DNA from: Planctomycetota bacterium | GTDB lineage: Bacteria; Planctomycetota; Phycisphaerae; Phycisphaerales; UBA1924 | Direction: 5' to 3' | Length of the DNA: 64,000 nucleotides | Assembly (NCBI GenBank): GCA_024276195.1 | Contig: JAJRXR010000021.1 | Span: forward strand, 56,688-120,687 | Shown here: in pieces, positions 21,492 to 42,312 of the stretch | How the letters are laid out: each line of letters starts with the position of its first letter | Numbering within the stretch: the stretch's first letter is position 1 | Notes under the pieces: generated by a model | Told to the model about the DNA's origin: nothing | The model's input: the letters and a program-made list of their open reading frames with translations, nothing else | Database searches by the model: none | Translations under genes and position numbers: made by a program

Positions 21492-21511
21492 TTGAAGAAA
21501 GGAAGCACGCG

Positions 21512-22042: not shown

Positions 22043-22096
22043 TTCTCGGCGCGGGGCGCTCTGCCCTGCGCGCGTTTGAACATCCGGCGGAGCGGG

Positions 22097-23325: not shown

Positions 23326-24032
23326 ACGGTGCAGGCGATAGATCCCGGGCGTTCACGCTGATCGAGGTGCTGCTCGCGTTGGCGCTGCTGGCGGGCGTCA
23401 CCGGCGCGGCGATGGGGCTGCTCTCGAACCTGACCCGGCGCCAGGAGCACATCCGTGCGCACAGCGAGCGTTCTCTGGGCGGGGGCTTGCTCATCGATCG
23501 CCTCGAACGGGCGCTGGCGACGAGCTACGCGCAGGACGGCGCGGGCGAGGCGGGGGTCAAGGGTGACGGGCGTTCGATCCGTGTCCTGCACCGGGGGGTG
23601 ATCGGGCACAGCGAGCTTCCCGGTGGCGACCGGCGAGCATTCGACCTGCGCTGGTCCGAGACCGATCGGAACATCAGCGTCACGTTCTCGGGCGATGGCG
23701 CGGAGGGCGCGAGCGAGATCCTCGCCGATCGGGTTGAGCGTCTGCGCCTGCGGTACTTCTCCGGCGCCCGGTGGCGGTCGTCGTTTGATTCGGTTAGCGC
23801 GGGCGAGCTGCCCAGCGCTGTCGAGATCGCGATCTGGTTCGAACGCGCCGGAGCGGAAAATGACGCGCTACATGGGGGTTCTTTGGCGCCGCCCGGCGGT
23901 GCGATGGATGACCCGTTCGCTCTGGCGGGTGAGCCCGACGAGGACCGGGCGCTGCCGACGCGCCGCCCGGATCGTGTGCGTGTGATGGTTGTGCCCGATG
24001 CGCCCAGCGCGTCGTGGGAGGTGGGCGGATGA
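23322..24032 (+). CDS. gspJ: Minor pseudopilin GspJ-like
   Basis: The start is GTG 23322, overlapping the gspI stop (GTGA). The 236-aa product has a clear prepilin signal SRAFTLIEVLLALALL with Ala10/Phe11 cleavage and Glu15 at +5. The size and the DRLERALATSY and ADRVERLRLRYF segments agree with GspJ. It overlaps gspK by 4 bp. It is expected in the pseudopilus tip with GspI and GspK. Confidence 0.85.
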   Translation: MNGAGDRSRAFTLIEVLLALALLAGVTGAAMGLLSNLTRRQEHIRAHSERSLGGGLLIDRLERALATSYAQDGAGEAGVKGDGRSIRVLHRGVIGHSELPGGDRRAFDLRWSETDRNISVTFSGDGAEGASEILADRVERLRLRYFSGARWRSSFDSVSAGELPSAVEIAIWFERAGAENDALHGGSLAPPGGAMDDPFALAGEPDEDRALPTRRPDRVRVMVVPDAPSASWEVGG

Positions 24033-25504: not shown

Positions 25505-26988
25505 AGCGTTCTGAAACGACCATCCTGATGGACTTCGACCGCGACCACTTCGGCGCGATCGGTGTGCTCGGGCACGGTGCGTCGGCGCATGTCTCGGGGT
25601 GGCGCCTGATCAAACGCCCGGAGAGCGTTCGCGCTGACGAGCCCGAAGCGCTCGGGCGTTGGCTCAAGGGCCAGCTCGACGAGGCGGGGCTGGGGTCTGG
25701 GCGTGTGGTCATCGGGGCGCCTCGCTCGGAGGTTGTGCTCAAGCTGCTGAGCGTTCCCGGGGGGCGGGCGCTCGATGAGCACGAGCTGGCGGGCGTGGTC
25801 CGGTTGCAGATGCTCCGCCAGACGGCCGTGGCGATCGAGGACGCGGTGCTTGATTACATGGCGTTCGACGACGAGGGTGAGGGCGCTGACCGGCGGGTGC
25901 TTGTCGGGGCGATCCCGGGCGAGCGGCTGAGCTGGCGGCGGCGGGTGGTCGAGAGCGCGGGGCTCAAGCTGACGGGGCTGCGATTGCGCGCGTCGGGGAT
26001 CGCCGAGCTTGTCGGCTCGGCGGCGGGCTCGGGCGACGCGCCGGCGCTGGGCATCGGGATCGGGTTCGCCTCGGTCGAGTTTGCGCTCGTCGAGCACGGG
26101 CGATTGGTCTTTGCGCGGACGGCGGACCTGCCCGACTCGGGCGAGGATGCCGCGGCGCTGGCGCGCCGGATCACGGTCGAGGCGAAGCGCACGGCGATGA
26201 GCTTCCGGGTGGCGCAGCGGACGCCGGACGTGGGATCGGTGGTGGTGCTGGGCGATGACGCGCTGGCGCGGGGCGTGGCGAGGGGGTGCGCCGAGGATCT
26301 CGGGGTGCCGAGCACGACGCTGGTCCCGCCGATCCGGGGGCTCGATGCGCTGCCGGCGGAGGCGGTGCGGGCGATGGCGCCGCTCGTTGGGCTGGCGATC
26401 CAGGACGAGCGCGGGCGCCCGGGGCTGGACTTCATCAACCCGAGGCGGGAGCCGGACCGGAACATCGGCAAACGCCGGGCGGCGCTGCTGGCGCTGCTGG
26501 GTGTGATGCTCGTGGGCGGCGGGGGGTACGTCGTCCGTGCATCGACGCTGGGCTCACTCAACACCGAACTCGAGGCGGTCCGGGCGCGGAGCGCGACCCT
26601 GACAACCGAGTATCTGGACGCGATGGCTCGTGACGCGCGGGCGGAGCACCTCGAGGCGTGGATCGACGCGGCGCCAGAGTGGAGCGCCGAGCTTGAGCGC
26701 GTCATCGGGCTGCTGCCGGCGCCCGAGCAGGGGCCGCTCGATGCGCTCGCGGGCGCGAGCAACCCGGAGGTGCGCTTCACGAGCGGGAGCGGGGCGCCCT
26801 ACCCCGGGGTCTGGACCGCAGCGACGGTCGAACGGATCACGCTTGATGGGCGCGTCAGCTCGCGCCGGGTCTCAACGGAGCTGCGCGAACGGATCCTGGC
26901 GGAGGGGCATTTCCGCCTGAGCGTGCGCGGCGCCGACGTCGCGGATCGGTTCTCGCTGGAGCTTCGCGCCGCGGGGGAGACGCCATGA
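25501..26988 (+). CDS. gspL: GspL-like protein with PilM-like and PilN-like parts
   Basis: The start is GTG 25501, overlapping gspK (GTGA). The 495-aa product has an actin-like N-terminal part (about 1-325) with the PilM/GspL pattern (VVIGAPRSEVVLKLL, then LGIGIGFASVEFALVE). A single membrane helix (about 326-345), a short coiled coil and a periplasmic ferredoxin-like domain follow, as in PilN. GspL recruits the ATPase GspE to the membrane platform. The next gene supplies GspM and GspC parts. Remote homology and gene order together support the call. Confidence 0.8.
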   Translation: MKRSETTILMDFDRDHFGAIGVLGHGASAHVSGWRLIKRPESVRADEPEALGRWLKGQLDEAGLGSGRVVIGAPRSEVVLKLLSVPGGRALDEHELAGVVRLQMLRQTAVAIEDAVLDYMAFDDEGEGADRRVLVGAIPGERLSWRRRVVESAGLKLTGLRLRASGIAELVGSAAGSGDAPALGIGIGFASVEFALVEHGRLVFARTADLPDSGEDAAALARRITVEAKRTAMSFRVAQRTPDVGSVVVLGDDALARGVARGCAEDLGVPSTTLVPPIRGLDALPAEAVRAMAPLVGLAIQDERGRPGLDFINPRREPDRNIGKRRAALLALLGVMLVGGGGYVVRASTLGSLNTELEAVRARSATLTTEYLDAMARDARAEHLEAWIDAAPEWSAELERVIGLLPAPEQGPLDALAGASNPEVRFTSGSGAPYPGVWTAATVERITLDGRVSSRRVSTELRERILAEGHFRLSVRGADVADRFSLELRAAGETP

Positions 26989-27971
26989 GCGATCGGCGCA
27001 GGCTGCTGATCTGGGGCGGCGGAGGGCTGGCGCTGGCGGCGGGGGTGTACCTGCTGGCGTTGGTGTTCATCCTGAGCCCGGCGGCGGAGCTGCGGGAACG
27101 GATCGCGCGTGCGCGAGAGATATCGCAGGGCCTGAGCGCGCAGATCGATCGGTTCGCGGACGCCGGCGATCGCCTCGGGGCGGTGGGGGCGACGATGCTG
27201 GCGCGAGATCGGGACGTGTTCGAGCATCGCCTGCGGGCGGGGCTGAGCGCGATCGCGACGGGGGCTGGTCTTGATGAGGTGGTGGTGACGAGCACGCCGC
27301 CGCGCGCGGCTGCGAACCCGGGCGCCAGCGTCCGGATGTCGGGGGGCTTTGGCGCCTTGCGCGCGCGCCTGCGCCGCCAGACGGATTTTTATATTGTTCG
27401 CGGGCGTGTCCAGGGCACGGGCACGCTGGAGGAGGCGCTGCGAACGCTCGCGATGCTCGAGGGGCAGGAATGGATCCACAGGATCGAGGGGTTGAGCCTC
27501 CGCCCGGTTGGGGGGGATCGCGAGCGGGTCGAGCTGAAAGTGGATTTCGGGATCGCGATGGCGGCGGACTTGGCGCCGCGGGATGCGGGGGCGCATGCGC
27601 CTGTTGCGTCTGAGGGGAGGCCCGAGGCTTTGGCGTTGGCTGGGCGGGTGGCGAAGCGGGGGCTGTTTCGGGTTCCGCCGAGGGCGCCCGAGGCGGCGCA
27701 GGTCCAGGCGCCCCAGCCGGTTGAGCCTCCGAAGGCGCCGCCCCCGCCCTATCAGGATTGGCGCCTGGCGGGGGTGATGGGGGGGACCCGGGCCGAGGCG
27801 GTGCTGGTGCATCGGGCCAGCGGGAAGTCGCGGGTGCTCGGGGCGGGGGAAGGGCTGCTCGGGGCGGTGTTTGAGGGGGGCGAGGGCGAGCGGGCGGTCT
27901 TCCGGATCGGGGACAAGCGGTACGAGGTTTTTCTGGGGAAGTCACTCGCAGATCGACGCGAGCTGAAATAG
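26985..27971 (+). CDS. GspM/PilO-like protein fused to a GspC HR-like domain
   Basis: The ATG overlaps the gspL stop (ATGA). The 328-aa product has a membrane helix at about 10-30, a coiled coil, and a PilO/GspM-like ferredoxin domain to about residue 195. A Pro-rich linker (about 230-255) leads to a C-terminal domain beginning DWRLAGVMGG, with EAVLVHRASGKSRVLGAGE and RYEVFLGKSL. This last part has the layout of the GspC homology region (PilP-like), which contacts the N0 domain of the secretin. A single protein may therefore replace GspM and GspC. No separate gspC is present in the window. The fusion is inferred by pattern, not by a profile search. Confidence 0.68.
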   Translation: MSDRRRLLIWGGGGLALAAGVYLLALVFILSPAAELRERIARAREISQGLSAQIDRFADAGDRLGAVGATMLARDRDVFEHRLRAGLSAIATGAGLDEVVVTSTPPRAAANPGASVRMSGGFGALRARLRRQTDFYIVRGRVQGTGTLEEALRTLAMLEGQEWIHRIEGLSLRPVGGDRERVELKVDFGIAMAADLAPRDAGAHAPVASEGRPEALALAGRVAKRGLFRVPPRAPEAAQVQAPQPVEPPKAPPPPYQDWRLAGVMGGTRAEAVLVHRASGKSRVLGAGEGLLGAVFEGGEGERAVFRIGDKRYEVFLGKSLADRRELK

Positions 27972-28036: not shown

Positions 28037-31000
28037 ATGAAGCGGCAACTCTCAGCCCGCGCCATCACGGCGTGGAGTCTCGCGGCGACGGCCGGATTCG
28101 CGGTCTCGGCGCGAGGCGGGCTCCAGCCCGAACCGGCGCCAGACGCGAGTTCTGACCTGGCCCCGGGCGCAGGCGACATCGGGGACGCGATCGAGCCCCG
28201 GATCCGGTTCAACTTTATCGAACTCCCGTTCGGCGAGGTCATGAACTTCATGGCCCGCGAGTCCGGGCTGCCCGTGATCCGCGAGGCGCCGCTGCCCCCG
28301 GGCGCGATGACGTTTATCAGCGCGGCCGACTACACGCTCGAAGAAGCGATCGAGATTCTAAACCTGAACCTGCGGATGCACGGCGCCCGCCTCGAACGCG
28401 GCGAGAAGTATCTGACGCTGCGTTCGATCGAGGACGCGGCCCGGCGCCCGACGCCCGTGCTCAGCGATGAGGATCTCGAGGGGATCGACCCGAGCAAGTT
28501 CCTGACGATCTACCTGCCCCTGAACAACGCGATCGCGTCGCAGGTGAGCGAGCAGATCGCGCCGCTGATCAAAGCGCCGGGGATGGTGCAGGCGATCGAC
28601 GCGCAGAACATGCTGATCATCGTCGAGACGGCGGCCCAGTGCAGGCGCCTGCGCGAGATTGTCAACCAGATCGACAGCGTTCGCCCGGCGGACATCGGGC
28701 TGCGGGTCTTCCCGGTGACGAACACATCGGCGGCGGGGCTGGCCGAGTCGTTGCGGGCGCTCGTGCCCGAGCGCGACCAGGTGATGACGATCGACAAGAA
28801 CGGGCAGCCGAAGATTGTCGAGGACGTGTCCAAGCCGCCGCTGAAGATCCAGGCGGACGAGCGCCTCAACGCGGTGATCGCGGTCGGACCGAGCCAGCGG
28901 ATGGGGACCATCGAGGAGCTGATCGCGCTGCTGGACACGCCCGAGACCGGGGCGCCCAGTGGGCGGCGGATGATGACGTTCACGCTCGCCGACGCTGACG
29001 CAACAGCCGCGGCGGCCCAGCTCGAGTCGCTGTTCCGGGCGCTGCCCGAGCGGCGCAGGCCGACGGTCCAGGCGCTGGCGGATGTGGGCAAGGTGGTGGT
29101 CGTCGCGTCGGCGGATCTGCTGGCGCAGTCCAAGGCGCTGCTCGAAGAGCTCGACCCGGGCCTGGGGGATGGGCAGGGGGCGGGCGTGCGCTCGGCGCGG
29201 GTGATCCCGCTCGAGCATGTGACATCGCAGCAGGCCGAGCAGATCGTTCGGCGCTTGCTCTCGCCCAGACAGAGCAAGGTCATCCGGTTTGCGCCGCTGC
29301 CCGGCGGATCTGGGCTTGTGGTCGCGGGGCCGAGCGGGGATGTGGAGCAGTTCGAGAAGCTGGTGCGCGGCCTGGATGTCCAGCCTGACCGGCGGCACGA
29401 GGCGCGCGTGGTGCGCATCACAGAGGGCGATCCGGCGCAGATTGTCGAGATGGCGCGGGGTGTGGAGGCGCTGACGGGCGATGAAGCGCGTGACCCTGTG
29501 CGCACGATCATCGACGCCGATTCTCGGTCTGTCACGCTCGTGGGCACACGCGAGGGCGTGACGCGGTTCGAGCAGCGCCTGCGCGCGGCGCAGTCGCAGG
29601 CGGGCGTAGAGCTTGAGACGAGGACGTACCGCCTGGACAGCGTCAACGCGACGCAGCTGAGCGGGCGTCTGAGCCGGCTGGCGCGTCCGTTGCTGACGCC
29701 GACGGACGGGTCGGCGTACCGGGCGCCGAGCTTTGAGGCGCTCGATGAGCTTGAGACGCTGGTGGTCCGGGCGCTGCCGGGGCAGTTTTCGACGATCGAG
29801 GGGCTGATCGATCAGCTCGACGGGGAGCGCGGTTCCGACCGGCGGCTGCAGGTGCTTGATCTGGTCGGGAGCGATCCCGAGGGGACGCTGGCGCGCGCGC
29901 TGGCGTTGTATGAGGAGCAGACACGCGGCCTGCCGGTGAGCGAGGCGGGGACGATCGACGCGGAGATCGACAAGGTTGCGGGGAAGCTGATTGTTCGGGC
30001 GAACGCCGCGGGGATGACGCGGTTCACGGGTCTGCTGCGTCAGGTGCAGCAGCTCATGCCCCCGGCGCGGACGACGCGGATCATCGACATCCAGCAGGTG
30101 AAAGCGGCGGACCTGATCGAGCCGTTGCAGGAGTTTCTGGCGTCGGGCGACCCGGTGGATCCGGGGCGTGAGACGCCCGAGCCGACGCTGCGGGTGATCG
30201 AGCGGACGAACTCGATCGTGGTGAAGGCCGAGGAGTTGCAGCACCGGGTGATCGCGGATTATGTGCGTCGCCTGGACAAGATCGAGCCGAGCGAGCTGCC
30301 GCCGCTGCGGTTGTTGCAGCTTCGCACGGCGGATGCGCTGGGCATCGCGTCGATGCTGCAGCAGCAGTACAACAAGCGTCCGTCGGCGGATCGCCTGGCG
30401 CGCCCGGTCGAGGTCCGGGCGGACGGGACGACGAACACGCTGATCGTGGCGGCGCACGAGGAGCTGCTGGGCGAGATCCGGGCGTTTGTGGACGAGCTGA
30501 ACACGGACGCGGACGAGCCGGAGCGGATTACGTTTTTGTTCCCGCTGAAGGTGGCGCGGGCGGTGGATGTGGCCAAGGCGATGGACAAGCTGTACCCGCA
30601 GCCGCCGATGCCTCGGGATCGGTACAACCGCCCGATGCCGTGGCTGCAGGAGCAGAAGGAGGTGACGGTCAGCGCGGACGCGTCGAGCAATAGTCTTATT
30701 ATCGACGCGATTGCGGACCGGCGCGAGTCGCTCGAGGAGCTTGCCGAGAAGCTCGACCGGGTGGAGGTGCCGCCGGTCGCGGAGCTGCGGACGTACCGGG
30801 TTGTGGAGGCGGACCTGAACGCGGTGGCGCGGATGCTCTCCGGGCTTGCACGCCAGGGGACGCTGGCGGGGCCGGCGCAGGCGGGCAAGGCGAAGGTGCA
30901 GGTCGTGATCGAGACCGAGCCGGCAAGCTCGACGCTGATCGTCGCGGGCGACGAGGTGACATTCGCGAAGGTCGAGCAGGTGCTCGCGTCGCTCGAAGCG

Positions 31001-34000
31001 GCGCCGATCGAGCGGGGGCTGCGGATCGTGCCGATCGCTAATGCGCAGGCTACGGTCATCCGGGACCGGGCGATGGCGATCTATGAGTCGCAGGTCGCGC
31101 AGATCCCGAGCGCGGGGTCGGTCAACGTTTCGGTCAACGATGAGACGAACACGCTGGAGGTTGTCGCCGACGAGAAGGCGATGAATCGGTTCCTGGGGAT
31201 CCTCGATGAGCTGCAGGACCAGATCGGCGCGGCGAGAGAGGTGCGCCTGATCGAGCTGCGCCTGGCGGCGGTGGGCGAGGTGATCGGGTTCCTCGAAGAG
31301 CTGGTCGAGGCGAGCGATTCGCTGCGCATCGGCGGCGGCCCGAGGCCGGTGTTTGAGCCGATCGAGACGACCAACTCGATCATGGTCGCGGCCCAGCCCG
31401 AGCAGTTTGCGATCATCGAACAGCTTGTCCGCTCGCTCGACGCGCAGCAGACGGGCGATCGCCCGCCGCTGCGGATCTTGCGGTTGCGATCGACCGAGGC
31501 GGGGAACCTGGCGCAGGTGCTCAACCGGTCGTACCAGCAGCGCCCGGTGGACGAGCGGACGCTCAAGCCGGTGAACATCCAGGCGGACCCGGCGACGAAC
31601 ACGCTGATTGTCTCGGCCCACCCGGACGTGTTGCCCGAGATCGAGCGGATCATCTCGGAGCTGAACGACGCGCAGTCATTCGATTCAGCGGCGAGGCAGA
31701 TCCGGATCTTCCCGCTGCGCGTGGCGCGGGCGGAGGAGCTGGCGAAGACCATCGATGAGATGTACCCGGAGCCGCCGATGCCGCGCGATTCGCGCGGGCG
31801 TCCGAGGCCCGATCTGCAGCTTCCCAAGGAGATCTTTGTCCGGGCGGACCGGGCGACGAACTCGCTGATTGTTGACGCGCCGACGGACCGGCTTGCGGGG
31901 TTTGAGCAGATCGTCGAGCAGCTCGACAAGGCGAGCCTGAGCGCGGATGTGGAGCTGCGGACGTACCGCGTGGCGCGGGCGGACCTGGCGGCGGTCGAGC
32001 GGACGATCCGTGATCTCGCGGACCGGGGGGCGTTGGCGACAACCGGGCAGGCGCCGGTGACGGTCAGCACCGAGCCGGCGAGCCGGACGCTGATCGTGTC
32101 CGGGCCGAGCGCGGTGTTCGAGCGGATCGAGTCGGTGCTTGCGGAGGTGGACGCGGGGGCGAACCGCCCGGTGACGGGGCTGAAGATGTACGCGCTCGAG
32201 CACACGCGGGCCGAGCGTCTGGCGCCGTTGCTCGAGGGGCTGCTTGAGACGAGGCTGCGCGAGCAGCAGCTCTCGGGGGAGGGAGTGATCGCCGGCGAGA
32301 CGGAGACGCTGCTCGACATTGTGTCGGACGGGGCGAGCAACACGCTGATTATTTCGGCGCCGGAATCAATCCTGGATATCGCCGAGCAGCTGATCGAGGC
32401 GCTCGATACCGAGGCGGCGAGCATCGGGCGGAGCGTGATCCGCGTGGCGCCGCTGACGTACGCCGAGGCGAGGTCGGTGGCGCAGACGATCAACGAGGCG
32501 CTGCCGACGATCGAGCTGCCTTCGGGCGGGCCGGTGCGAGTGATCGCGGCGGCGGGATCGAACGCGCTGCTGCTCTCGGGCAGCGAGAAGGACCTGGAGA
32601 AGATCGAGGCGCTGATCGACTCGCTCGATCGCCAGCCGTTCGACCCGGAAAAACCGGCGGTCGAGACGTTTATGTTGCAGCACGCCGACGCGCGGGCGAT
32701 CGCGGCGACGGTCGAGCGGCTGCTCGTTGACCAGCAGCAGACAGACCCGCGCATCCTCGCGCTGCAGCTCCGGTACACCCGCGGGCGGGTTCCTCTCCAG
32801 CCCAAGATCCGGGTCGAGGCGGAGCAGCGGACCAACAGCCTGATCGTGTCCGGCCCGGGTTCGACGATCGAGCTGGCGCGTGCGCTCATTGCGCGCCTCG
32901 ATCAGCAGGGCGAGGAGCCGGGGCGGACGGTGGTGACGTTCACGCCTGCCAAGGGAGACCCGGCGCGCCTGGCGCAGACCGTGCGTGAGATCGTCAAGGC
33001 GACCATGGCCCAGGGGCGGCGCCCGCTGGAGCTCACGCCCGAGCCTTCGACCGGGAGCGTGATTGTCATCGGGACGGACGAGCAGGTGGCGCGTGCGGTC
33101 GGGTTGTTGCAGGAGCACGACGACCGGACGGTCGGGATGCCGCTCGTTGAGATCCGGTCGTTTGATCTTGCGCACGCGGATGCGGACGCGGTGGCGAAGA
33201 CGGTGCAGTCGCTGCTGAGCGATCGGTCGCGTTGGCCCGAGGGGCTGTTGCGTGCAGAGCGTGCGGGGGTGTCGCTGCCGCGCCCGGCGCTCGAGGCGGA
33301 CCGCGGCTCGTCGCGCGTGATCGTCAGCGCTCCCGCCGCGCTTATGGCGATGGCTGAGCAACTCATCACCACCCTCGATCGCCCGTCGGCGTCGGGCGGC
33401 GTCGAGATCCGGGTCTTTACGCTGAGCGAGGGTGACGCGGGCTCGGTGGCCAAGGCGCTCGAACAGGCGTTGTCGATGGGCGTCTCTCCGGCCGAGCCCA
33501 GGCCCAGCGTCAGCGCCGAGGTGCGGAGCAACTCGGTCGTGGTCGCGGGATCGCGTCAGCGCGTCGAGATGGCGGCGGGCCTGATCGCCTCGATGGATTC
33601 GGTCGCGATGGAGACGAGCGAGATCGGCGTTCGGACGATCTTTCTTGAACACGCGCGGGCGGAGGCGCTGGCGCCGATCGTCGAGAGCGTGCTGACGCAG
33701 GATTCGGTGCTGTCGATGGCGCCCGAGTGGGGGCGTTGGCAGCTTGCCAACACCATGATCAACCGGGGACAGGCGCCGGATTTCAACGGGATCAGGGTCG
33801 CGCCCGAGCGCCGCCTCAACGCGCTGGTTGTCAGCGCCCCGCTGGCGATGCTGGAGCTGGCCGAGCAGGTGATCTCGGGGCTGGATGTGGACCCGGGCGA
33901 CGGGCCGGGCGGGGGGCGGGTGGTGCGCGTGATCACCCTGACCAACGCCGACGCGCAGGAGCTGGCGGGGAACATCGAGGCGGTGTTCGACGAGGACGCG

Positions 34001-37000
34001 ACCGGGGCGGCGGCGCCGACGGTGCGGGTCGATACCTCGAGCAACTCGCTGATTGTGCGCGCGACGAGCGGGCAGTTCGAGACGATCGAGTCGCTCGCCC
34101 AGACGCTCGACGCTGCGACGCTGACCACGCGATCGCAGATCCGGATGATCCCGCTTGACCGCTCGCGCGTGAGCGCGGCGGAGATGGCGCAGACGCTCAA
34201 ACGCCTGCTCGAACAGCGCGGCGGGGTCCGGGTTGACGTGATTTCCGCCGAGGAGCTGCTTGAAGGCGGAGAGGACGAGCCGGGCGCGTCGGCGCCAGTT
34301 GATCAGCTCCCGCTGCTCACCCCCGCGTGGGTCACGCTCTTTCAGCACGCGATGGGTCTGCTGGCGCTCGAGCCGATCGAGGTGGAGCCAAGCGAGAGCG
34401 CGACTGTGACGATCGCGGTTGATCCGGTGAGCAACACGCTGATGGTGGTGGGGTCGCCACGGATCACGGATCGGATTGCGGCGCTGGCGGCGGAGCTGGC
34501 GATGCAGATGCCCGTCGAACCGACGGGCGTGCGCATTGTTGAGTTGCCCGCCTCGCTGGATCCGGCGAGGGTGGCGCAGGTCGTGAACCAGACGGTGCGC
34601 CAGGTCGGGCGCAGCGGCGCGACGAACCCGGGCGGGTTCACCGGGCGCGTCTCGGTGAGCCCGGACACCCAGGGTCAGGCGCTGATCGTCTGGGCCAACG
34701 AGACGGACTTTGCCAGCGTGCGCGATCTGGTCTCGGGCCTTGCCCGGTTGAACCGATCCGATGAACTGGCGGTCAAGGTGTACCCGCTGCGGAACGTCTC
34801 GGCCAGGTCCGCGGCTTCGTCCGTGCGCGATCTCGTCAGCCCCAGACCGCGCGGGCGCCAGGCCCGGCGCGTCCGGACGCTGGACCTGAGCGTGCAGGGC
34901 AGCGACGGGCAGGTTGTCCGCCGGACGATCGACCCGGCCCGCGTGAGCGTGACGATGGACCCGGGGCAGGGCTCGCTGATCGTGACTGCCCCGAGCGATG
35001 CGCTCCAGCTTATTGACCGCTTTGTCGAGCTCATCGACCAGAGCCCGGCGGGCGAACGCCTCGCGATCCGTCAGTACACGCTCGAGTACGCGCGGGCGTC
35101 GGCCCTCTCGCGGACGCTTCAGGCGCTGTTCGACGCCCAGCGCCAGGGCGCGGGCGCCAACGAGCGCACGCGGGCAAGGTTTGTGGCCGACGATCGCACG
35201 AACGCGCTCCTTGTCACCGCGTCGGGCGAGCAGCACGCGGAGATTGAGCGGTTGCTCGCGGCGGCGGATATCTCGCTGGAGGACGACGAGCTGGAGCTGG
35301 CGATCATCCCGCTGCAGCTTGCGCGCCCGTCGGCGGTGCAGCAGATCATCGAGCAGGTTGTCATCGGGCGCGACCCGGCGATGCGCGAGAAGGTGCTCAT
35401 CTCGGCCCAGGACAACTCGGGTGTGTTCGTCGTGCGGGCGCCCAAAGAGAAGATCGCCCAGATCCGCGAGATCGTGGCCCAGGTCGATACGTCCGAGGCT
35501 GCGGCGTACCCGGTGCGTTCGATCAAGCTCGAGCGTGCCGACGCGCTGAGCGTGGCGGCGTCGCTGCAGGAGTTTTTCCAAAATCGCGCCCGCGTGGGGC
35601 AGGCTAGGAGCAACGGGCGGGGCGGGGGCGACGCGGCGATCGTGGGCGACCGGCGCTCGGGGACGCTCGTGATCGCGGCTTCCGACGAGGACTTTGAGCA
35701 GATCAGCGAGCTTGCGGCGCAGTTCGACGCGCCTGCGGCTGGGAAAGAGATTCAGTACAAGATCATCGAGCTGCAGCATGCGCGGGCGACGGATATTCGC
35801 GACAGCATCGAGAATATCGTGTACGACCTGCAGTGGGAGCGGTCGAGCAGGTTCCGGGGCAATGCAGATACGGGCAGCCAGGACCGCGTGCTCATCGAGG
35901 TCAACGAGCGCACCAACACAGTGCTCGTGTTCGGGCAGGGCGAGACTCTGGAGGTGCTCACGAAGATCATCGCGGACCTGGACCGGGCGCCGGGCGAGCA
36001 GGGCAAGCGCGTGGTGCGGGCGCTCACGGCCGAGGGGGCCGATCTCGATGCGCTGGCACGCCTGATTGAAGAGGTGACGGCGTCTCCCGGGTGGCGCTGG
36101 TGGATGGGGACGGACCCGGAGCAGGTCTCGGTCGAGGTGGACCGGGATCGGCGGTTGCTGATTCTGATTGGTGTCAAGGCGCGGGTGGACGAGGCGGCGG
36201 CTTACGTTGAAGAGATCGCGGCGGCCGGGGGCGACGACGGACGCTCGATTGTTCCAATCAGGCTTGAGCACGCGCGGGCGGACCGGGCGGCGAGCTCGCT
36301 GCAGCGGTTCTTCCGTGATCGCGCCCGGGCCGAGGGGCGCCGCGCGGACAGCGTCGCGATCATCGGCTCGCGCGAGGGGAACCTGATCATCGTCAGCGCC
36401 GACGAGGAGGATCTGGCGATTGTCCGCGAGCTGATCGAGCAGATCGACCTGCCGGACCTCGCGGCGGACCGGGAGATCCGCGTCTTTGCGCTGAGCAACG
36501 CCGAGCCGAGCGAGACGGCGCGGACGATCAACCAGATGATCTCGCGCACCGGTCGGGACGAGGACCGGGTGATTATTTCGGCGCAGGAGACGATGCGATC
36601 GCTGATCGTCTCGGCTCCAGGCGAGCGGATGGAAGAGATCGAGTCGCTGATCGGTCGCCTCGACGCGCTGCCGGGCGCCGAGCACGCGCAGATCGAGACG
36701 GTGACGCTCGAGGTGGCGCGTGCCAGCGCGGTGGCGCGCGAGCTGGAGATGGCCCTGCCCGAGAGCGTGCGTGTCGAGATCACGCCGGTGGCGCGGACGA
36801 ACTCGATCATGCTGACGGGGTCGCGTGAGGCGATCGCGCTCGCCCGGGCGCAGATCGAGGCGTTGGACATCGAGGCGCCGCGTGCGCCCGTTGAGTTCCG
36901 GCGCTACGAGGTCCAGCACACGACGGCGTCGGACATCGCGTACTCGCTGTCGGCGCTGCTGCGCAACCGCCCGCGGGGCGAGGGCGAGCCGGTCCCGGTG

Positions 37001-40000
37001 GTGGACGCGAACTTCAACGATGATGTGCTGAGCGTGACGGCGGGCGCCGACGAGATGCGGTTTATCGAATCGCTCGTCGAGCAGCTCGATGTGCCGCAGC
37101 AGACAGCGCGGACGACGGAGTTCATCAAGCTGGAGTTCGCGGGGGCTGCGCAGGCGGCCGATGCGCTGAAGGTATTTTATGGCCCGGGCTCGTTCGAGGC
37201 CCGGACGCCGGCGGAGCGGAACGTGACGATCGTTGCCGACCCGGCGTCCAACTCGCTGGTGGTCAGCGCCGACGAGAGCGTCTGGTCGGGGCTGCGCGGG
37301 CTGCTCGAAAAGCTCGACACGCCCGAGTACGACACGACGCAGCAGCTCGTGGTGATCCCGCTCACGCACGCGAGCGCGACGAGCGTGGCCCGGGCGCTCA
37401 ACGAGGGTCTGCGGGCGCCGCTGGAGAACCAGCTCGAGCGCGAGCGGGTGCGCCTGGAGGCGGAGCGGCGCGGGCAGAACGGGCGTGATGGGCGCGACGG
37501 CGCTGTGGCGCCGGCGGTGCTGATCGACGCCGAGGGCGTGCCGACGGTCTCGGCCGAGCGAGAGACCAACTCGCTGATCGTGTTTGCGGGTCGGAAGGAT
37601 CTCGAGCGGATCCGAGAGATTGTGGCGCAGCTGGACGTTCCCGACATTCTCAAGCTGCCCGAGGCGCGGCTGATCGCGCTGCGATCTGGGCGTGCGAGTG
37701 TGCTGGCTGAGGCGGTGCGTCGGGTATTTCTTGCACAGGACGACCCGGACAACCCGCGGCGCGTCATGGTGTACGGGGATGACTCGTCGAACGTGATCAT
37801 CGTCCGGGCCGAGGACGCGGAGTTCGAGCAGATTTCGCGCCTGGCCGAGCAGTTGCAGAGCCAGGCCGCGACGGCCGAATCAACACCCAGGGTGATGCGT
37901 CTGAGCCATGTCCCGGCGGCGCGTGTGCGTGAGACGGTCATGCGGACCTTTGCGCCGATCGCGGCCCAGCGGGGCGAGACGTTCGCCGTGGAGATCGATC
38001 GCGGCTCGAACAGCCTTGTCATCGCGGCCAGCGAGACGCTCCACGAGCAGATCAAGAGCATCGTCGAAGAGCTCGACCGCGCGAGCGCTCCAGAGGACGG
38101 GGGCGACAGCGCCGGGATTGGGCAGAATGTTTCAATCATCGAGGTCGTGAACAACGCGCCGGACGAGATCGTCGCGTCACTCGTGGCGCTCGGCGTGACC
38201 CAGGCGCAGCCAGCGGACCGACCCGTGCTTGTGTCCGAGCCGGTGAGACTGGTGGCGCTGACGACGCGGCGCGCAATCAGCGTGCTGGCCAACCCGAGCG
38301 ACGGTCGGGCCATTGAGCGGCTGATCCGCGAGCTCGACGCCAGCCCGATCCGCCCGGACGAGCAGTTGAAAGTCGTCAAGCTCTATGTGGCCGAGGCGCA
38401 GGGTGTGGCGAGGTTGCTCGGGCAGATGCTGACGCTCGACCCGAGCGGAGAGCGGTCGGGCGCCGCGAGCGGGCTGGTTGAGCAGGTGCGCCGCCTGAAC
38501 CTGATGCGCACCGGGATCGACGATGGCCCGGTGCGTCTGGATCTGTCGCGCCCGATCCGCCTGATCGCGGACCCGCAGACCAACTCGATCATCATCGGGT
38601 CGTCGGCGGCGAACGCAATCGCGGTCGCCGAGCTGATCGCGACCTTTGACACGCTGCCGATCGGCGAGGCCGTGACCGTCCGTGTGTTCCCGCTGAGAAA
38701 TGCGTCGGCAACGCGCCTTCAGACGATCATCGAGGATCTGTTCCGGCGCGGCGAAGAGATCCGGCGCATCCCCGGCACCCAGCGTCAGGGGCAGCCCACG
38801 ACGACGGTGGGGCGGGCGCTGGCGGGCTCGATCGCCGTGACGGTTGACGAGCGGACCAACGCGCTCGTGATCGCGGGGCGGGAGGAGGCGTTGGCGTTGG
38901 TCGAGGTGCTGCTCAAGGATCTCGACAACGGCGATTCAGAACGCGGGTGGATCGAGACAGAGCTGACCGTGCTCGAGTACGCCGACGCGGTGAGCATGGC
39001 GGACAAGCTCCGGCGTGTGCTCATTGATGGGCTTGGCGAGACGCCCGACGCGATCGGGCTGCGAACCCAGGTCGGGCGATTGCGGGTGGCGCTGCGCGAG
39101 GGCGGCGAGGCGGTTGTCAGCGACCGGTACGCGGTGATGTCCGGGCTGGTGATCGAGCCGGAGGAGAGCCTCAATGCGCTGATTCTTGTCGGCTCTCGGG
39201 CCAACATCGACGCGGTGCGCGAGCTGGTCAAGATTCTTGACGTTGAGCAGGCGTCTGCGGCGAATACGGTTCGCGTGATCCCGCTCAAGCACGCCTCGGC
39301 GGAGCGTGCAGCGGGAATCATCGAGGACGTGTTCTCGAAGCGAGAGGGGCAGCGGTCGTCCCGACCGGAGGACCGGGTCATCGTTTCTATCGATAACAGG
39401 ACGAACGCGCTGATCGTTTCGACGAGCCCGCGGAGCTTTGCACTGCTCGAGGGTTTGATTCGTACGATCGATACCGAGGAGGCGCGTTTCGCGGTGGGGC
39501 TGCACGTGATCCCGGCGCCGAACGCGGACGTCAACCGTCTGGCGCCGAAGATCCAGCGTCTGATGCGTGAGCGGATCAACGCGAGCCAGGTGCGCGGGGG
39601 AAGGCAGTCGGCGCTGGACGTGTTCCAGATCGAGGCCGAGCCAGCGACCAGCTCGCTGATCGTCGCGTGCTCGGATGAGAATCTTGAGCTGGTGTACGAG
39701 CTGATCGAGGCGTTGACGACGGGCGAGGTTGAGGCTGCGGGCGCAGACCGGACCGCGCTGATCCAGGTCGAGTCTCCCGGGCAGGCGGGGGTGATCGCCC
39801 AGGCGGTGCGAGAGCTGTATGTTGACCGGGAGAATACGCGCCGGGGAGAGCGGTCTGTCTCGGTGACGTCGAACGAGCGTCTGAACGCGCTGATTGTCAG
39901 CGGCACGGAGCGCGACATCGAGGCGATCCGGGAGCTTGTGACGCAGCTCGACGAGGCGCCGGTCGATCTGGTGCAGGAGATCAGGCGGGTGCGTCTCGAG

Positions 40001-41806
40001 TCGGCGGGGGCGCGTGAGATGGTGCGCCTGATCGAGAGCGTGCTGGCCGGGCGGGCGATGGGCGGCGGACGGATCGGGCCGAGCGCCACGCGCGTGCAAA
40101 TGCTTGGCGAGCAGCTCGCCGAGATCGCGGCCGAGGCGACGATGGACGGGACGCTGCGCGACCATGTGACACTCACGCCCGATCCGAGGACCAACTCGGT
40201 GCTGATCAAGGCGCCGCCTGAGATGATGAACCTGATCGCGACGATGATCGAGGATCTCGACGGCGAGAAACGCGGCGACCGGGTGATCGAGCAGTTCCGT
40301 CTGGTCAACGCGGACGCGGACCAGATGCAGAGCCTGCTGGTCCAGCTGTTCAACCTGCGCCAGGATGGCGATCGGTATGTGCTGGCGCCGGCGGGCGACG
40401 AGATGGCGGACGAGTTCGCGTCGGGCACGTTCACACCGATCGCCGACGGGCGCCAGGAGCTCTCGATCACGGTTGATCGGCGGACCAACACGCTGCTGGT
40501 TTCTGGAACCAGCGAGTACATCGAGGAGGTCCGCAAGATCGTCATCGAGCTTGACGGGATCGAGGCGACGGAGCGGGAACGCCTCGTCTACCACCTCCAC
40601 AACGCCAAGGCAAAGGACATCGAGGAGACGCTACAGTCGTACTTCAGCGGCGAGCGCGAGCTGCGCCGGTCAACCCTCGGCCCGCAGTTCACCGGCTCGC
40701 TCATGCGCGAGCTTGAGCAGGAAGTCACCGTCGTTGGCGACGAGAAAAGCAACAAGCTCGTGATCTCGGCGTCACCTCGGTACATCGATACGGTCGCGCA
40801 GATCGTTGAAGAGCTCGACGCGGCGCCGCCGCAGGTGATGATCCAGGTCCTGCTGGCCGAGGTGACGATCGACGATTCGAGCGAGTTCGGGATCGATGTT
40901 TCGATCGGCGGCGTGCTGAGCGAGGGCGAGGGCGTTGCCGATCTTGTGAACCGATCCAAGATCGGCGGCGACGGGTTCGCGTTCCAGAAGCTGGCTGCGG
41001 GCGCTGGCATCGCGACGGCTCTGGGCGTTCCGAACTTTGCGATCGCGAGCACGGACTTCGGGCTGCTCATCCGGGCGTTGCAGGAGCAGGGCAAGCTCGA
41101 GGTGCTTAGCCGCCCGATGGTGCAGGTCAACAACAACGAACGCGCCTTCATCCAGGTCGGTGAGAACATCGGCATCACCGACGGCATCGAGCGGCGCGAC
41201 ACGGGCGGCACCAGCGCCGTCATCCGGCGCGAGGACGTTGGCATCATCCTTGAAGTGACTCCCAGCATCAGCGCCGACGGCTTCGTTCGCATGGATATCA
41301 CGCCCGAGATCTCCACGCTCAGCGATCGGACTACGCAGATCGACGAAAACTTCGCGGCTCCGATCATCACCCAGCGGCGCGTGCAGACCACCGTCACCGT
41401 CAAGGACGGGCAGACCGTGGTCATAGGCGGGCTCATGCAGACCACCGATCAGCTCCGCAAAACTAAGGTCCCTCTGCTCGGTGACATCCCAGTTCTTGGT
41501 GAGCTGTTCAAGTCAGAGAAACAGTCGAGCGTGAAAACCGAGCTGCTCATCATCCTCACGCCGTATGTCATCCCGGGCGATGCGAGCGGACGCGAGCGTC
41601 AGGAGCGTCTGACCAGGCACGCGATTAATCTTCTCGAGGATCCGACCAAGATCCGAGAGGTGCTCAAGCAGGAGCACACCATCGACCTCGACCCCGTTCC
41701 CGGGAGTTCGCTCGACACCGCGATCAAGCGGATCGACGGCCTCCATCACTCGGACATCAAAGACGGCGACGGGGAGTCCTCGATCGGGAAGGGTGACGGG
41801 CAATGA
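28037..41806 (+). CDS. gspD: Giant GspD-like secretin, 4589 aa, about 50 N1-type domains
   Basis: GGAG lies 10 bases before the ATG. Residues 1-26 look like a signal peptide. Residues 55-133 form an N0 domain (FNFIELPFGEVMNFMARESG). From about 150 to 4265 there are roughly 50 tandem N1/NolW-like (secretin_N) modules of about 78-85 residues. Each runs beta-helix-beta into a strand signature like (T/S)N(S/T)LIV and closes with an LD-ending helix. Residues 4266-4510 are a full secretin domain: MIQVLLAEVTIDD, RPMVQVNNNERAFIQVGE, QRRVQTTVTVKDGQTVVIGG, KTKVPLLGDIPVLGELF and LLIILTPYVIPGD. Normal GspD/PilQ proteins are about 600-750 aa with three or four N domains. Secretins form outer-membrane channels for secreted proteins or pili. 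The frame is uninterrupted over 13.77 kb, and the gene overlaps the following lipoprotein gene by 4 bp. Confidence 0.95.
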   Translation: MKRQLSARAITAWSLAATAGFAVSARGGLQPEPAPDASSDLAPGAGDIGDAIEPRIRFNFIELPFGEVMNFMARESGLPVIREAPLPPGAMTFISAADYTLEEAIEILNLNLRMHGARLERGEKYLTLRSIEDAARRPTPVLSDEDLEGIDPSKFLTIYLPLNNAIASQVSEQIAPLIKAPGMVQAIDAQNMLIIVETAAQCRRLREIVNQIDSVRPADIGLRVFPVTNTSAAGLAESLRALVPERDQVMTIDKNGQPKIVEDVSKPPLKIQADERLNAVIAVGPSQRMGTIEELIALLDTPETGAPSGRRMMTFTLADADATAAAAQLESLFRALPERRRPTVQALADVGKVVVVASADLLAQSKALLEELDPGLGDGQGAGVRSARVIPLEHVTSQQAEQIVRRLLSPRQSKVIRFAPLPGGSGLVVAGPSGDVEQFEKLVRGLDVQPDRRHEARVVRITEGDPAQIVEMARGVEALTGDEARDPVRTIIDADSRSVTLVGTREGVTRFEQRLRAAQSQAGVELETRTYRLDSVNATQLSGRLSRLARPLLTPTDGSAYRAPSFEALDELETLVVRALPGQFSTIEGLIDQLDGERGSDRRLQVLDLVGSDPEGTLARALALYEEQTRGLPVSEAGTIDAEIDKVAGKLIVRANAAGMTRFTGLLRQVQQLMPPARTTRIIDIQQVKAADLIEPLQEFLASGDPVDPGRETPEPTLRVIERTNSIVVKAEELQHRVIADYVRRLDKIEPSELPPLRLLQLRTADALGIASMLQQQYNKRPSADRLARPVEVRADGTTNTLIVAAHEELLGEIRAFVDELNTDADEPERITFLFPLKVARAVDVAKAMDKLYPQPPMPRDRYNRPMPWLQEQKEVTVSADASSNSLIIDAIADRRESLEELAEKLDRVEVPPVAELRTYRVVEADLNAVARMLSGLARQGTLAGPAQAGKAKVQVVIETEPASSTLIVAGDEVTFAKVEQVLASLEAAPIERGLRIVPIANAQATVIRDRAMAIYESQVAQIPSAGSVNVSVNDETNTLEVVADEKAMNRFLGILDELQDQIGAAREVRLIELRLAAVGEVIGFLEELVEASDSLRIGGGPRPVFEPIETTNSIMVAAQPEQFAIIEQLVRSLDAQQTGDRPPLRILRLRSTEAGNLAQVLNRSYQQRPVDERTLKPVNIQADPATNTLIVSAHPDVLPEIERIISELNDAQSFDSAARQIRIFPLRVARAEELAKTIDEMYPEPPMPRDSRGRPRPDLQLPKEIFVRADRATNSLIVDAPTDRLAGFEQIVEQLDKASLSADVELRTYRVARADLAAVERTIRDLADRGALATTGQAPVTVSTEPASRTLIVSGPSAVFERIESVLAEVDAGANRPVTGLKMYALEHTRAERLAPLLEGLLETRLREQQLSGEGVIAGETETLLDIVSDGASNTLIISAPESILDIAEQLIEALDTEAASIGRSVIRVAPLTYAEARSVAQTINEALPTIELPSGGPVRVIAAAGSNALLLSGSEKDLEKIEALIDSLDRQPFDPEKPAVETFMLQHADARAIAATVERLLVDQQQTDPRILALQLRYTRGRVPLQPKIRVEAEQRTNSLIVSGPGSTIELARALIARLDQQGEEPGRTVVTFTPAKGDPARLAQTVREIVKATMAQGRRPLELTPEPSTGSVIVIGTDEQVARAVGLLQEHDDRTVGMPLVEIRSFDLAHADADAVAKTVQSLLSDRSRWPEGLLRAERAGVSLPRPALEADRGSSRVIVSAPAALMAMAEQLITTLDRPSASGGVEIRVFTLSEGDAGSVAKALEQALSMGVSPAEPRPSVSAEVRSNSVVVAGSRQRVEMAAGLIASMDSVAMETSEIGVRTIFLEHARAEALAPIVESVLTQDSVLSMAPEWGRWQLANTMINRGQAPDFNGIRVAPERRLNALVVSAPLAMLELAEQVISGLDVDPGDGPGGGRVVRVITLTNADAQELAGNIEAVFDEDATGAAAPTVRVDTSSNSLIVRATSGQFETIESLAQTLDAATLTTRSQIRMIPLDRSRVSAAEMAQTLKRLLEQRGGVRVDVISAEELLEGGEDEPGASAPVDQLPLLTPAWVTLFQHAMGLLALEPIEVEPSESATVTIAVDPVSNTLMVVGSPRITDRIAALAAELAMQMPVEPTGVRIVELPASLDPARVAQVVNQTVRQVGRSGATNPGGFTGRVSVSPDTQGQALIVWANETDFASVRDLVSGLARLNRSDELAVKVYPLRNVSARSAASSVRDLVSPRPRGRQARRVRTLDLSVQGSDGQVVRRTIDPARVSVTMDPGQGSLIVTAPSDALQLIDRFVELIDQSPAGERLAIRQYTLEYARASALSRTLQALFDAQRQGAGANERTRARFVADDRTNALLVTASGEQHAEIERLLAAADISLEDDELELAIIPLQLARPSAVQQIIEQVVIGRDPAMREKVLISAQDNSGVFVVRAPKEKIAQIREIVAQVDTSEAAAYPVRSIKLERADALSVAASLQEFFQNRARVGQARSNGRGGGDAAIVGDRRSGTLVIAASDEDFEQISELAAQFDAPAAGKEIQYKIIELQHARATDIRDSIENIVYDLQWERSSRFRGNADTGSQDRVLIEVNERTNTVLVFGQGETLEVLTKIIADLDRAPGEQGKRVVRALTAEGADLDALARLIEEVTASPGWRWWMGTDPEQVSVEVDRDRRLLILIGVKARVDEAAAYVEEIAAAGGDDGRSIVPIRLEHARADRAASSLQRFFRDRARAEGRRADSVAIIGSREGNLIIVSADEEDLAIVRELIEQIDLPDLAADREIRVFALSNAEPSETARTINQMISRTGRDEDRVIISAQETMRSLIVSAPGERMEEIESLIGRLDALPGAEHAQIETVTLEVARASAVARELEMALPESVRVEITPVARTNSIMLTGSREAIALARAQIEALDIEAPRAPVEFRRYEVQHTTASDIAYSLSALLRNRPRGEGEPVPVVDANFNDDVLSVTAGADEMRFIESLVEQLDVPQQTARTTEFIKLEFAGAAQAADALKVFYGPGSFEARTPAERNVTIVADPASNSLVVSADESVWSGLRGLLEKLDTPEYDTTQQLVVIPLTHASATSVARALNEGLRAPLENQLERERVRLEAERRGQNGRDGRDGAVAPAVLIDAEGVPTVSAERETNSLIVFAGRKDLERIREIVAQLDVPDILKLPEARLIALRSGRASVLAEAVRRVFLAQDDPDNPRRVMVYGDDSSNVIIVRAEDAEFEQISRLAEQLQSQAATAESTPRVMRLSHVPAARVRETVMRTFAPIAAQRGETFAVEIDRGSNSLVIAASETLHEQIKSIVEELDRASAPEDGGDSAGIGQNVSIIEVVNNAPDEIVASLVALGVTQAQPADRPVLVSEPVRLVALTTRRAISVLANPSDGRAIERLIRELDASPIRPDEQLKVVKLYVAEAQGVARLLGQMLTLDPSGERSGAASGLVEQVRRLNLMRTGIDDGPVRLDLSRPIRLIADPQTNSIIIGSSAANAIAVAELIATFDTLPIGEAVTVRVFPLRNASATRLQTIIEDLFRRGEEIRRIPGTQRQGQPTTTVGRALAGSIAVTVDERTNALVIAGREEALALVEVLLKDLDNGDSERGWIETELTVLEYADAVSMADKLRRVLIDGLGETPDAIGLRTQVGRLRVALREGGEAVVSDRYAVMSGLVIEPEESLNALILVGSRANIDAVRELVKILDVEQASAANTVRVIPLKHASAERAAGIIEDVFSKREGQRSSRPEDRVIVSIDNRTNALIVSTSPRSFALLEGLIRTIDTEEARFAVGLHVIPAPNADVNRLAPKIQRLMRERINASQVRGGRQSALDVFQIEAEPATSSLIVACSDENLELVYELIEALTTGEVEAAGADRTALIQVESPGQAGVIAQAVRELYVDRENTRRGERSVSVTSNERLNALIVSGTERDIEAIRELVTQLDEAPVDLVQEIRRVRLESAGAREMVRLIESVLAGRAMGGGRIGPSATRVQMLGEQLAEIAAEATMDGTLRDHVTLTPDPRTNSVLIKAPPEMMNLIATMIEDLDGEKRGDRVIEQFRLVNADADQMQSLLVQLFNLRQDGDRYVLAPAGDEMADEFASGTFTPIADGRQELSITVDRRTNTLLVSGTSEYIEEVRKIVIELDGIEATERERLVYHLHNAKAKDIEETLQSYFSGERELRRSTLGPQFTGSLMRELEQEVTVVGDEKSNKLVISASPRYIDTVAQIVEELDAAPPQVMIQVLLAEVTIDDSSEFGIDVSIGGVLSEGEGVADLVNRSKIGGDGFAFQKLAAGAGIATALGVPNFAIASTDFGLLIRALQEQGKLEVLSRPMVQVNNNERAFIQVGENIGITDGIERRDTGGTSAVIRREDVGIILEVTPSISADGFVRMDITPEISTLSDRTTQIDENFAAPIITQRRVQTTVTVKDGQTVVIGGLMQTTDQLRKTKVPLLGDIPVLGELFKSEKQSSVKTELLIILTPYVIPGDASGRERQERLTRHAINLLEDPTKIREVLKQEHTIDLDPVPGSSLDTAIKRIDGLHHSDIKDGDGESSIGKGDGQ
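28490..40830 (+). repeat. Coding array of about 50 divergent secretin_N modules
   Basis: By eye I counted 50 copies of the module signature: a short strand, an x-D-x-x-(T/S)-N-(S/T/A)-L-(I/V)-V-x-(A/G) turn-strand, an amphipathic helix and a final L-D. Copies differ strongly at protein and DNA level, so this is an old expansion, not a recent slippage or assembly error. A few early and central modules are degenerate (for example LGSGLVVAG-like or RLLILIG cores). Spacing is 78-100 residues, with longer inserts in some modules. Confidence 0.88.
29846..32179 (+). repeat. Two tandem five-module super-repeats inside gspD
   Basis: Block A (29846-31018, residues 604-994) and block B (31019-32179, residues 995-1381) align module by module in the same order. 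Matching landmarks are PPLRLLQLR / PPLRILRLR, QPPMPRDRYNRP / EPPMPRDSRGRP, ELRTYRVVEADL / ELRTYRVARADL and TNTLIVAAHEEL / TNTLIVSAHPDV. The period is about 389 aa. The module just before block A (RTYRLDSVNATQL) is in phase with the last module of each block. This shows duplication of a five-domain unit. Confidence 0.8.
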
Positions 41807-42312
41807 GGCGCGCTCTTACCCTTGGTATTGCGGGGATTCTGATCGTCCTCAGCGGGTGCGCTTCATCGCCTGAATCGCGATCTCAGACCGCGCGGGCTCC
41901 GAGGGCGAAACCCGCGAGTGTTCACGCTCCGCAGCAGCTGTGGCTGGCGGTCGCCAGCCCGACGGACGCCGACGGGAACGGCTACGCGGACACCTTCCAG
42001 GTGATCGTCTATCTCTTCCCGGATCGCGAAATCTCGGCGATCCCGGTCTGGGCCGATGGGCGTTTTGACTTTCTACTCCGATCGCCCGAGGGGAAGCTGA
42101 TCGACCGATGGGTTTTCGGGCAGGAGTCGAGCGAGAAGGCGCGCCAGCGTCTGGCGCCGGGGCCTGGGTACTCGTTTTTCCTGCGTCTGTCGGGAGGATT
42201 GGACGTGCGCGAGCCGGTTGTCGCCACCCTTCACGCCTCGTTCACGCCTGTGGATGACTCGCCAAGGCTAGAAGGCGGAGGCGCCGCAAGTGTCAGGCTG
42301 GGCGGGAGTTAG
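41803..42312 (+). CDS. Small lipoprotein coupled to the giant secretin
   Basis: The ATG overlaps the gspD stop (ATGA), so translation is probably coupled. The 169-aa product has a signal peptide with the lipobox LSGC (Cys19). After a basic, Pro/Ala-rich stretch there is a single globular domain with an EF-hand-like loop, DADGNGYAD. No family was recognised. Position right after a secretin gene and lipidation recall pilotins (GspS, PilF/PilW), which carry secretins to the outer membrane, but the sequence is not like known pilotins. It could also be an accessory calcium-binding envelope protein. The role is inference from context. Confidence 0.7.
   Translation: MRRALTLGIAGILIVLSGCASSPESRSQTARAPRAKPASVHAPQQLWLAVASPTDADGNGYADTFQVIVYLFPDREISAIPVWADGRFDFLLRSPEGKLIDRWVFGQESSEKARQRLAPGPGYSFFLRLSGGLDVREPVVATLHASFTPVDDSPRLEGGGAASVRLGGS

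Follow-up and report, generated by a model that had tools for sequence, protein, structure and literature searches.

The question raised by this locus is what a secretin with some fifty ring-building modules might be, and what such a protein might do. The gene in question, a giant gspD, occupies positions 28037..41806 (+) of the window, by which we mean the whole 64,000-nucleotide stretch of contig C2 analysed here from a Planctomycetota bacterium of the class Phycisphaerae (genome G000: 3.04 Mb in 88 contigs, 91% complete). It runs uninterrupted by stops from an ATG at 28037 to a stop at 41806 and encodes a single 4589-aa secretin of about 497 kDa. As judged from its sequence and neighbours, the protein is an extreme variant of GspD, the outer-membrane secretin of the type II secretion system (T2SS), and we favour, with modest confidence, the view that its periplasmic part has grown to about 50 modules which stack as a conduit. 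Genomes, loci, contigs and families are designated below by handles beginning with G, L, C and f, respectively.

The domain layout is that of a secretin with a greatly multiplied middle. An N0 domain (28202..28426 (+), residues 56-130) precedes an array of 50 ring-building modules of the secretin_N or N1-like type (28514..40819 (+), residues 160-4261), recognised by profile, Pfam and modelled fold. The array is followed by a single Secretin domain (PF00263), the outer-membrane beta-barrel, at 41075..41572 (+) (residues 4347-4512; 167.5 bits against a cut-off of 27.5), assigned from Pfam, a model and a PDB match. The initial annotation, made from the letters alone, had described an N0 domain, about 50 modules and one intact C-terminal secretin domain in a 4589-codon frame, and this description is borne out by Pfam and by our own profile. 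The Secretin_N scan proposed there as a check returned, rather than a few domains, a score of 1243.7 bits (cut-off 28.2), with 39 individual stretches at E≤0.001 and 47 at a lax E≤10. An iterated module profile, grown from one module of the giant, recognised 49 modules at E≤0.05; relaxing the threshold to E≤0.5 brought the count to 50 by adding residues 623-669. The modules lie head to tail at a median spacing of 77 aa, joined by linkers with a median of 9 aa, and all gaps are 60 aa or shorter. At E≤0.5, one of 20 residue shuffles of the giant gave a single match and the other 19 gave none, and the reversed protein gave zero matches. Taken alone, the N0 of the giant matches the Pfam GspD N0 family (PF21305) weakly (E 0.085); 15 of 20 aligned relatives match that family (best 1.3e-11), and an N0 profile matched GspD N0 structures in the PDB at E 4e-5.

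A possible N-terminal export signal (28037..28111 (+)) was noted by eye. A scan for hydrophobic segments flagged none above threshold at the N terminus of the giant or of its genus mates L049 and L050; a clear hydrophobic N-terminal segment is present in many relatives. Within the arrays the scan gave no consistent segment at threshold, and a transmembrane segment there was rejected. By eye, residues 758-986 and 1146-1372 resemble a duplicated block of roughly three modules. Two antisense open frames within the gene, 28358-31621 and 32366-37369 (-), of 1087 and 1667 aa, are probably a by-product of the high G+C content.

AlphaFold2 models were obtained for eight mid-array modules (27-34; mean predicted local distance difference test score, pLDDT, 75.2; predicted template modelling score, pTM, 0.44) and for the last six modules with the barrel (mean pLDDT 66.7, pTM 0.33). 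Every modelled module has a beta-alpha-beta-beta-alpha fold, in some cases with inserted elements. In structural comparison the models rank highest with secretins of T2SS, type IV pili, type III secretion systems and a filamentous phage, and single modules fit secretin ring-building domains to 1.3-1.7 Å at best. On GspD/XcpQ N-domain crystal structures, multi-module fits were 3.7-6.6 Å for the mid-array model and about 14-15 Å, on most of them, for the C-terminal model.

The assignment to the GspD family follows from profile cut-offs as well as from domain order. The NCBIfam GspD equivalog TIGR02517 scores 397 bits against a cut-off of 351.35 over the last 845 aa of the giant, whereas the PilQ model TIGR02515 (234.1 bits, cut-off 284.35) and the type III secretin SctC model TIGR02516 (197 bits, cut-off 238.45) both remain under their thresholds. 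In the T2SS secretin GspD, the N-module comprises N0 and two ring-building domains, with N3 sitting in the C-module (PubMed Central, PMC, article PMC10550240; such articles are cited here for individual passages). The giant departs from this plan in carrying 50 modules, their type unchanged and their number different, and is therefore best described as an extended GspD variant. By its barrel, N0, profile cut-off and gene neighbours, we classify it as a GspD-family member of extreme form. No earlier description of a giant or many-module secretin of planctomycetes, or of one with 50 modules, was found among the titles and abstract openings listed from the open-licence PMC literature searched, for which the longer result lists were read in part.

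The giant is not confined to one genome. A profile of the C-terminal region (A1) was searched against 298 genomes of the class, of which 141 gave a match at E≤1e-120 and the other 157 did not at that threshold. We kept 125 of the 141, leaving out the genome of the window and 15 genomes with the match in frames of 685-1078 aa, as well as three second matches of kept genomes. The frames, some of them cut by contig ends, are at least 3000 aa long in 70 of the kept genomes, 2000-2999 aa in 9, 1400-1999 aa in 37 and shorter in 9. With its own genome included, a secretin frame of at least 3000 aa occurs in 71 of the 298 genomes, seven of which are assembled as a single contig (G002, G032, G038, G167, G227, G264 and G296; frames of 3776-4933 aa). 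An assembly artefact, which had been raised as a possible undoing of the finding, is rejected on these grounds. Four of the 70 long frames (G013, G050, G107 and G170) contain one stop within the matched stretch; in G050 and G170 the barrel match is free of it.

Among the loci fetched, 34 complete single-gene arrays carry 20-63 modules (median 40); L035, in which N0 was not found, is left out of this count, and L048, cut by a contig end, was dropped from the set. Each array protein examined has a median linker of 8-9 aa; in 21 of the longer proteins there are, in addition, one or two gaps of more than 60 aa. The largest array belongs to family f15 (L034:722-19219 (-); 6165 aa, 63 modules). Arrays were also seen in metagenome-assembled records labelled as other groups, L080 (Verrucomicrobia) with 42 modules and L077 (Planctomycetaceae, cut at its 5' end) with 46, which could represent mislabelled bins or transfer.

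The modules are held in register over considerable distances. All 50 are collinear one to one with those of the genus mate L049, and likewise with L011 of the same family and L014 of another family of the order, which has 52; L017, from the family of L014, shares 49 of the 50. The 39-module versions L050, L009 and L012 differ from the giant by whole modules. Across orders the register blurs (L023, L045 and L029; mean score of 62-80 on the path versus 40-45 off it). Between G000 and L049, non-synonymous divergence (dN) is 0.096 and synonymous divergence (dS) 0.65, an overall dN/dS of 0.15; the ratio lies between 0.03 and 0.37 across all 50 modules and is 0.045 in the secretin region. The giant is under purifying selection in every one of its modules.

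Perhaps most informative are relatives in which the array is divided between genes. In families f16 and f18, five complete pairs consist of a first gene (2607-3581 aa) that encodes N0 together with 24-33 modules and a second (1668-1754 aa) that encodes 15 modules and the barrel. The two-gene arrays L189 and L190 (f18) are divided as 25+17 and 29+13 modules, and a three-gene array in f20 as 10+14+15. Totals in the six complete two-gene arrays are 39, 41, 41, 43, 47 and 48 modules. L068/L041 is not counted as a pair owing to masked bases in its first array gene. The Pfam Secretin domain is absent from the three first pieces scanned (L066, L071 and L069). N0 was found in 34 of 35 single-gene arrays and in all six first pieces, and in none of nine secretin pieces of split arrays; since it is kept in the first pieces and never in the secretin pieces, the end with N0 and the end with the barrel have to be joined all the same. 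Of the evidence assembled here, these split versions, in which N0 is confined to the first piece, speak most strongly for a stacked conduit.

The break falls inside a module in two f4 genomes belonging to a single genus, so that the halves of the module lie on two proteins (G161: L069/L019; G240: L181, the same contig as L076); the genes overlap in G240 and are about 40 bases apart in G161. The break site is a long loop matching that of module 25 in the window (34139..34498 (+), residues 2035-2154), which is variable and contains a hydrophobic stretch. By eye, this stretch is kept, at the f4 split place, in the 12 f1 and f4 proteins examined. It may be what is left of the signal peptide of an ancestral second gene, or may have seeded a later fission. 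At the same place L016 (G249), an uninterrupted giant, has a signal-peptide-like stretch at about residues 2116-2140. Export of both f4 halves is putative, being suggested by signal-like starts seen by eye; the hydrophobic-segment scan flagged neither the start of L019B nor any part of L069A.

In a maximum-likelihood tree built from 58 C-terminal regions, the giants group with the split and Planctomycetia-type proteins as a single clade (54 rows, 99/98), within which the f4 split pair is nested among one-gene relatives (100/99). Outside it are four secretins of canonical size: two from f17, one from f44 and one from the window's own genome, on a very long branch. Secretins of the 11 Planctomycetia-type relatives (families f50, f91, f100 and f117) measure 1206-1469 aa, and 6-9 modules were detected in them. 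In five of these 11 genomes, within up to about 35 kb fetched upstream, we found a separate protein with N0 and modules, and in the record L083 such a protein lies downstream of the secretin. No Pfam Secretin domain was found in the two separate N0-bearing proteins scanned.

The surrounding genes are those of a T2SS. In the window the order gspF-G-H-I-J-K-L-M-D-lipoprotein is kept in line, several members being assigned by weak matches: gspF, the platform protein (20067..21254); gspG, the major pseudopilin (21464..22042); gspH (22076..22798); a gspI-like minor pseudopilin (22795..23325), from its position and a weak Pfam ComGE match; gspJ (23322..24032); gspK (24014..25504); a gspL or PilM-like gene (25465..26988), from weak matches under the cut-offs; and gspM (26985..27971; NF040576 GspM, E 3e-5, under the cut-off), all on the forward strand. 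The initial annotation had called the gsp operon complete. This holds for the adjacent genes F, G, H, I-like, J, K, L and M, but not for the gspE ATPase gene (16676..18370 (-)), which lies on the opposite strand 1.7 kb upstream of gspF and is separated from it by a glutathione-peroxidase-domain gene (18594-20045 (+)), nor for gspC, no separate copy of which was recognised among the window genes scanned. The C-terminal beta domain of GspM resembles, by eye, the HR domain of GspC/PilP; a GspC-type HR domain on GspM is not claimed, as its profile matched only de novo proteins and multicopper oxidases, and no GspC, in the PDB. Downstream, a lipoprotein-like gene (41803..42312 (+)) overlaps the gspD stop (ATGA), has a lipobox (LSGC) by eye and is a candidate pilotin; it has no match in Pfam or NCBIfam.

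Neighbours were compared in 64 loci of relatives, a number that exceeds that of genomes, as L076 and L181 represent one contig, L078 and L034 another, and several others are two stretches of one genome. The lipoprotein family is present in 59 of the 64, the five misses being upstream-only fragments (L065-L069), and in 58 of these 59 loci it adjoins the secretin and shares its strand; the match in L077 is the end of a longer overlapping frame. A scripted lipobox pattern was found in many, though not all, members. The gspM gene was found in 45 loci, adjoining the array on the same strand in all 45, and in 15 of the 19 loci without it the sequence ahead of the array is no longer than 124 bases. 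Among 27 other genomes of the window's family, the gspL of this operon is present in 15 of 16 with a giant and in none of 11 without (Fisher p 9e-7), or in one of the 11 if a marginal match (E 4.5e-4) is counted (p 1.4e-5). The intact frame, the platform genes and the coupled lipoprotein gene had been taken as arguments for function; class-wide recurrence, collinearity, purifying selection, conserved gsp neighbours, lipoprotein coupling and gspL co-occurrence agree with that judgement, and the giant secretin is evidently functional. The interpretation given there is thereby supported in part, a straight stack of 50 rings exceeding 100 nm being the portion that stays a proposal.

Some further genes near the operon and elsewhere in the genome attracted attention. 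Two ABC permease genes (43385-46276 and 46286-48607 (+)) encode proteins of 963 and 773 aa that seem far longer than usual, each with one C-terminal permease domain by Pfam; a phosphate-type binding protein gene (42420-43388) is their neighbour. In G000, 13 of 15 matches to T2SSE/PilB-type ATPases exceed the family cut-off, several of them close together on C2, a number that strikes us as high for a 3-Mb genome.

How might such an array be built? In the secretins investigated to date, N0 contacts inner-membrane partners, and the number of ring-building domains depends on the machine (PMC10550240). Even in the absence of the barrel, thioredoxin-fused N0-N1-N2 of XcpQ assembles into rings with a height of 8 nm (PMC5646246), and PilQ of Thermus, there called exceptionally long, has six rings, N0-N5, extending 35 nm in a periplasm of about 70 nm (PMC5745081, PMC4463427). 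An enlarged periplasm has been described in planctomycetes other than the organism of the window, with invaginations in Planctopirus (PMC5394234). We envisage that the lipoprotein would guide the C-terminal barrel to the outer membrane, that 12-15 copies would oligomerise with each module joining a ring, and that the rings would stack from the barrel to N0, which would dock on the inner-membrane platform (L/M). At an extrapolated 2.5-3 nm for each of 51 rings the walled conduit would measure 127-153 nm, and it would carry the pseudopilus or cargo across a wide or variable periplasm. In split arrays the first product would supply the part at the inner membrane and the last the part at the outer membrane, with ring abutting ring where they meet. 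A long tube would serve sites where the inner membrane is distant, such as invaginations, or else the array may be less than fully extended. Stacking is favoured because the order N0, modules, barrel is kept even when the gene is divided, because linkers are short and because totals are similar. The fuller proposal is put forward tentatively, at somewhat less than an even chance: that Phycisphaerae build a tube of about 40-50 stacked rings, longer than 100 nm, from platform to outer membrane, in some lineages from two or three segments joined ring on ring and in one by two half-modules completing a single ring.

Several observations weigh against a stacked tube. The window's own genome encodes three other secretins, of 979 aa (L052:3819-6758, contig C26; a single weak N module, with a TPR match beyond the barrel), 889 aa (L053:4380-7049, contig C78; N0 and three modules) and 1217 aa (L054:4089-7742, contig C15; no recognised N domain); with 0, 1 and 3 recognised modules among them, a periplasm uniformly wider than 100 nm is unlikely, and uniform enlargement as the whole story is unsupported. 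Module number varies from 20 to 63 between relatives, and a 12-15-mer of 497-kDa chains would total 6-7.5 MDa. The models do not fix the geometry between modules (pTM 0.33 and 0.44), and multi-module fits to full-length secretins are poor (20-54 Å). At the platform end, gspM was not found upstream in L015, L031, L035 and L043 despite 2.5-6.6 kb being available there, and an HR-type docking domain is unconfirmed, with one of 25 GspM members matching Pfam T2SSB (6e-4). For the Planctomycetia-type relatives, the partner module protein was not found in six of the 11 genomes within up to about 35 kb upstream, and a weak N0 match (8.6-23.8 bits) is kept in 7 of 16 secretins, namely in six of the 11 genomes and one of five named records. 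TamB, looked for as a second envelope-spanning ruler, was not found in the genome, a result that counts neither for nor against the tube.

Some of these points would suit a flexible tether, in which ordered rings form only at the N0 end and over the last few modules, while between them the module chains form a bundle that links platform and barrel as the inner membrane moves. Module-module orientation is not confidently predicted, relatives differ by whole modules, the other secretins of the genome are short, and the planctomycetal periplasm is reported to differ between individual cells (PMC5394234). We nevertheless consider such a tether rather unlikely: linkers with a median of 8-9 aa are too short to resemble one, families of the order share conserved module positions, and split arrays need specific contacts between their pieces, in one lineage inside a module.

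The same split arrays can be read in another way, as the two- and three-gene versions show that a covalent link of all modules to the barrel is dispensable. Modules might then be cut off after export and used independently, for example as a periplasmic scaffold or an array of substrate receptors, and N domains of secretins do take part in substrate handling in known T2SS. We hold this to be improbable, for N0 keeps its place at the end opposite the barrel in the tested single-gene and split arrays of the class, which best fits a connecting array, and long single-gene frames persist in many families.

A lateral arrangement, in which modules of neighbouring protomers pack as a skirt, collar or lattice round the secretin, recalls the crateriform outer-membrane complexes of planctomycetes, which join outer and inner membrane (PMC5394234); the 1254-1411-aa secretins of five of the 11 Planctomycetia-type genomes, accompanied in the same region by a distinct module protein that bears N0, could be accommodated by it. 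We give it little weight, since such modules form rings in known secretins, and a crateriform function is weakened by a passage of PMC8882080 that reports these structures as absent from described Phycisphaeraceae. Finally, neutral repeat expansion, with length not needed, is very improbable and already disfavoured: repeat number does shift by whole modules and some modules resemble duplicates by eye, but dN/dS is 0.03-0.37 in every module, the 50-module register is kept between families of the order, and split genes give similar totals.

If the modules do stack, a T2SS pseudopilus or cargo would be guided across more than 100 nm, and the family would offer a molecular handle on membrane connection in planctomycetes with large and variable periplasms. 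Six rings make up the secretin that has been described in print as exceptionally long (PMC5745081), and a family with 20-63 modules per protein contradicts the view of the N-module as a short vestibule. With fragments from the naturally occurring two- and three-gene versions, the ring-stack model can be put to the test. Annotation habits may have hidden the giants: one species description counts giant genes only above 15 kb (PMC8882080), and 65 of the 70 frames of at least 3000 aa in relatives are under 5000 aa.

Among known systems, the crateriform structures likewise join inner and outer membrane in planctomycetes with an enlarged periplasm (PMC5394234), but differ in their reported absence from the described Phycisphaeraceae. 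The Deinococcus secretin DR_0774 (8co1) is a multi-domain secretin among the PDB matches of the giant; its 740 aa leave space for far fewer modules. The PilQ of Thermus thermophilus, a long stack of periplasmic rings in an organism whose periplasm is wide, offers a parallel if the giant does stack as proposed, although it has six rings against about 51 and serves type IV pili and DNA uptake. With the GspD of T2SS there are differences of size (4589 aa, versus 524-657 aa for the PDB T2SS chains matching the N and C parts), of the candidate pilotin, which comes from an unnamed family in the window, and of GspC, which was not recognised as a separate gene among those scanned. In other respects the giant resembles XcpQ, PulD and the GspD proteins of Vibrio and E. 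coli, with N0 first, modules following, a C-terminal barrel and gsp neighbours, and GspD/XcpQ proteins are its top PDB matches both by sequence and for the two models.

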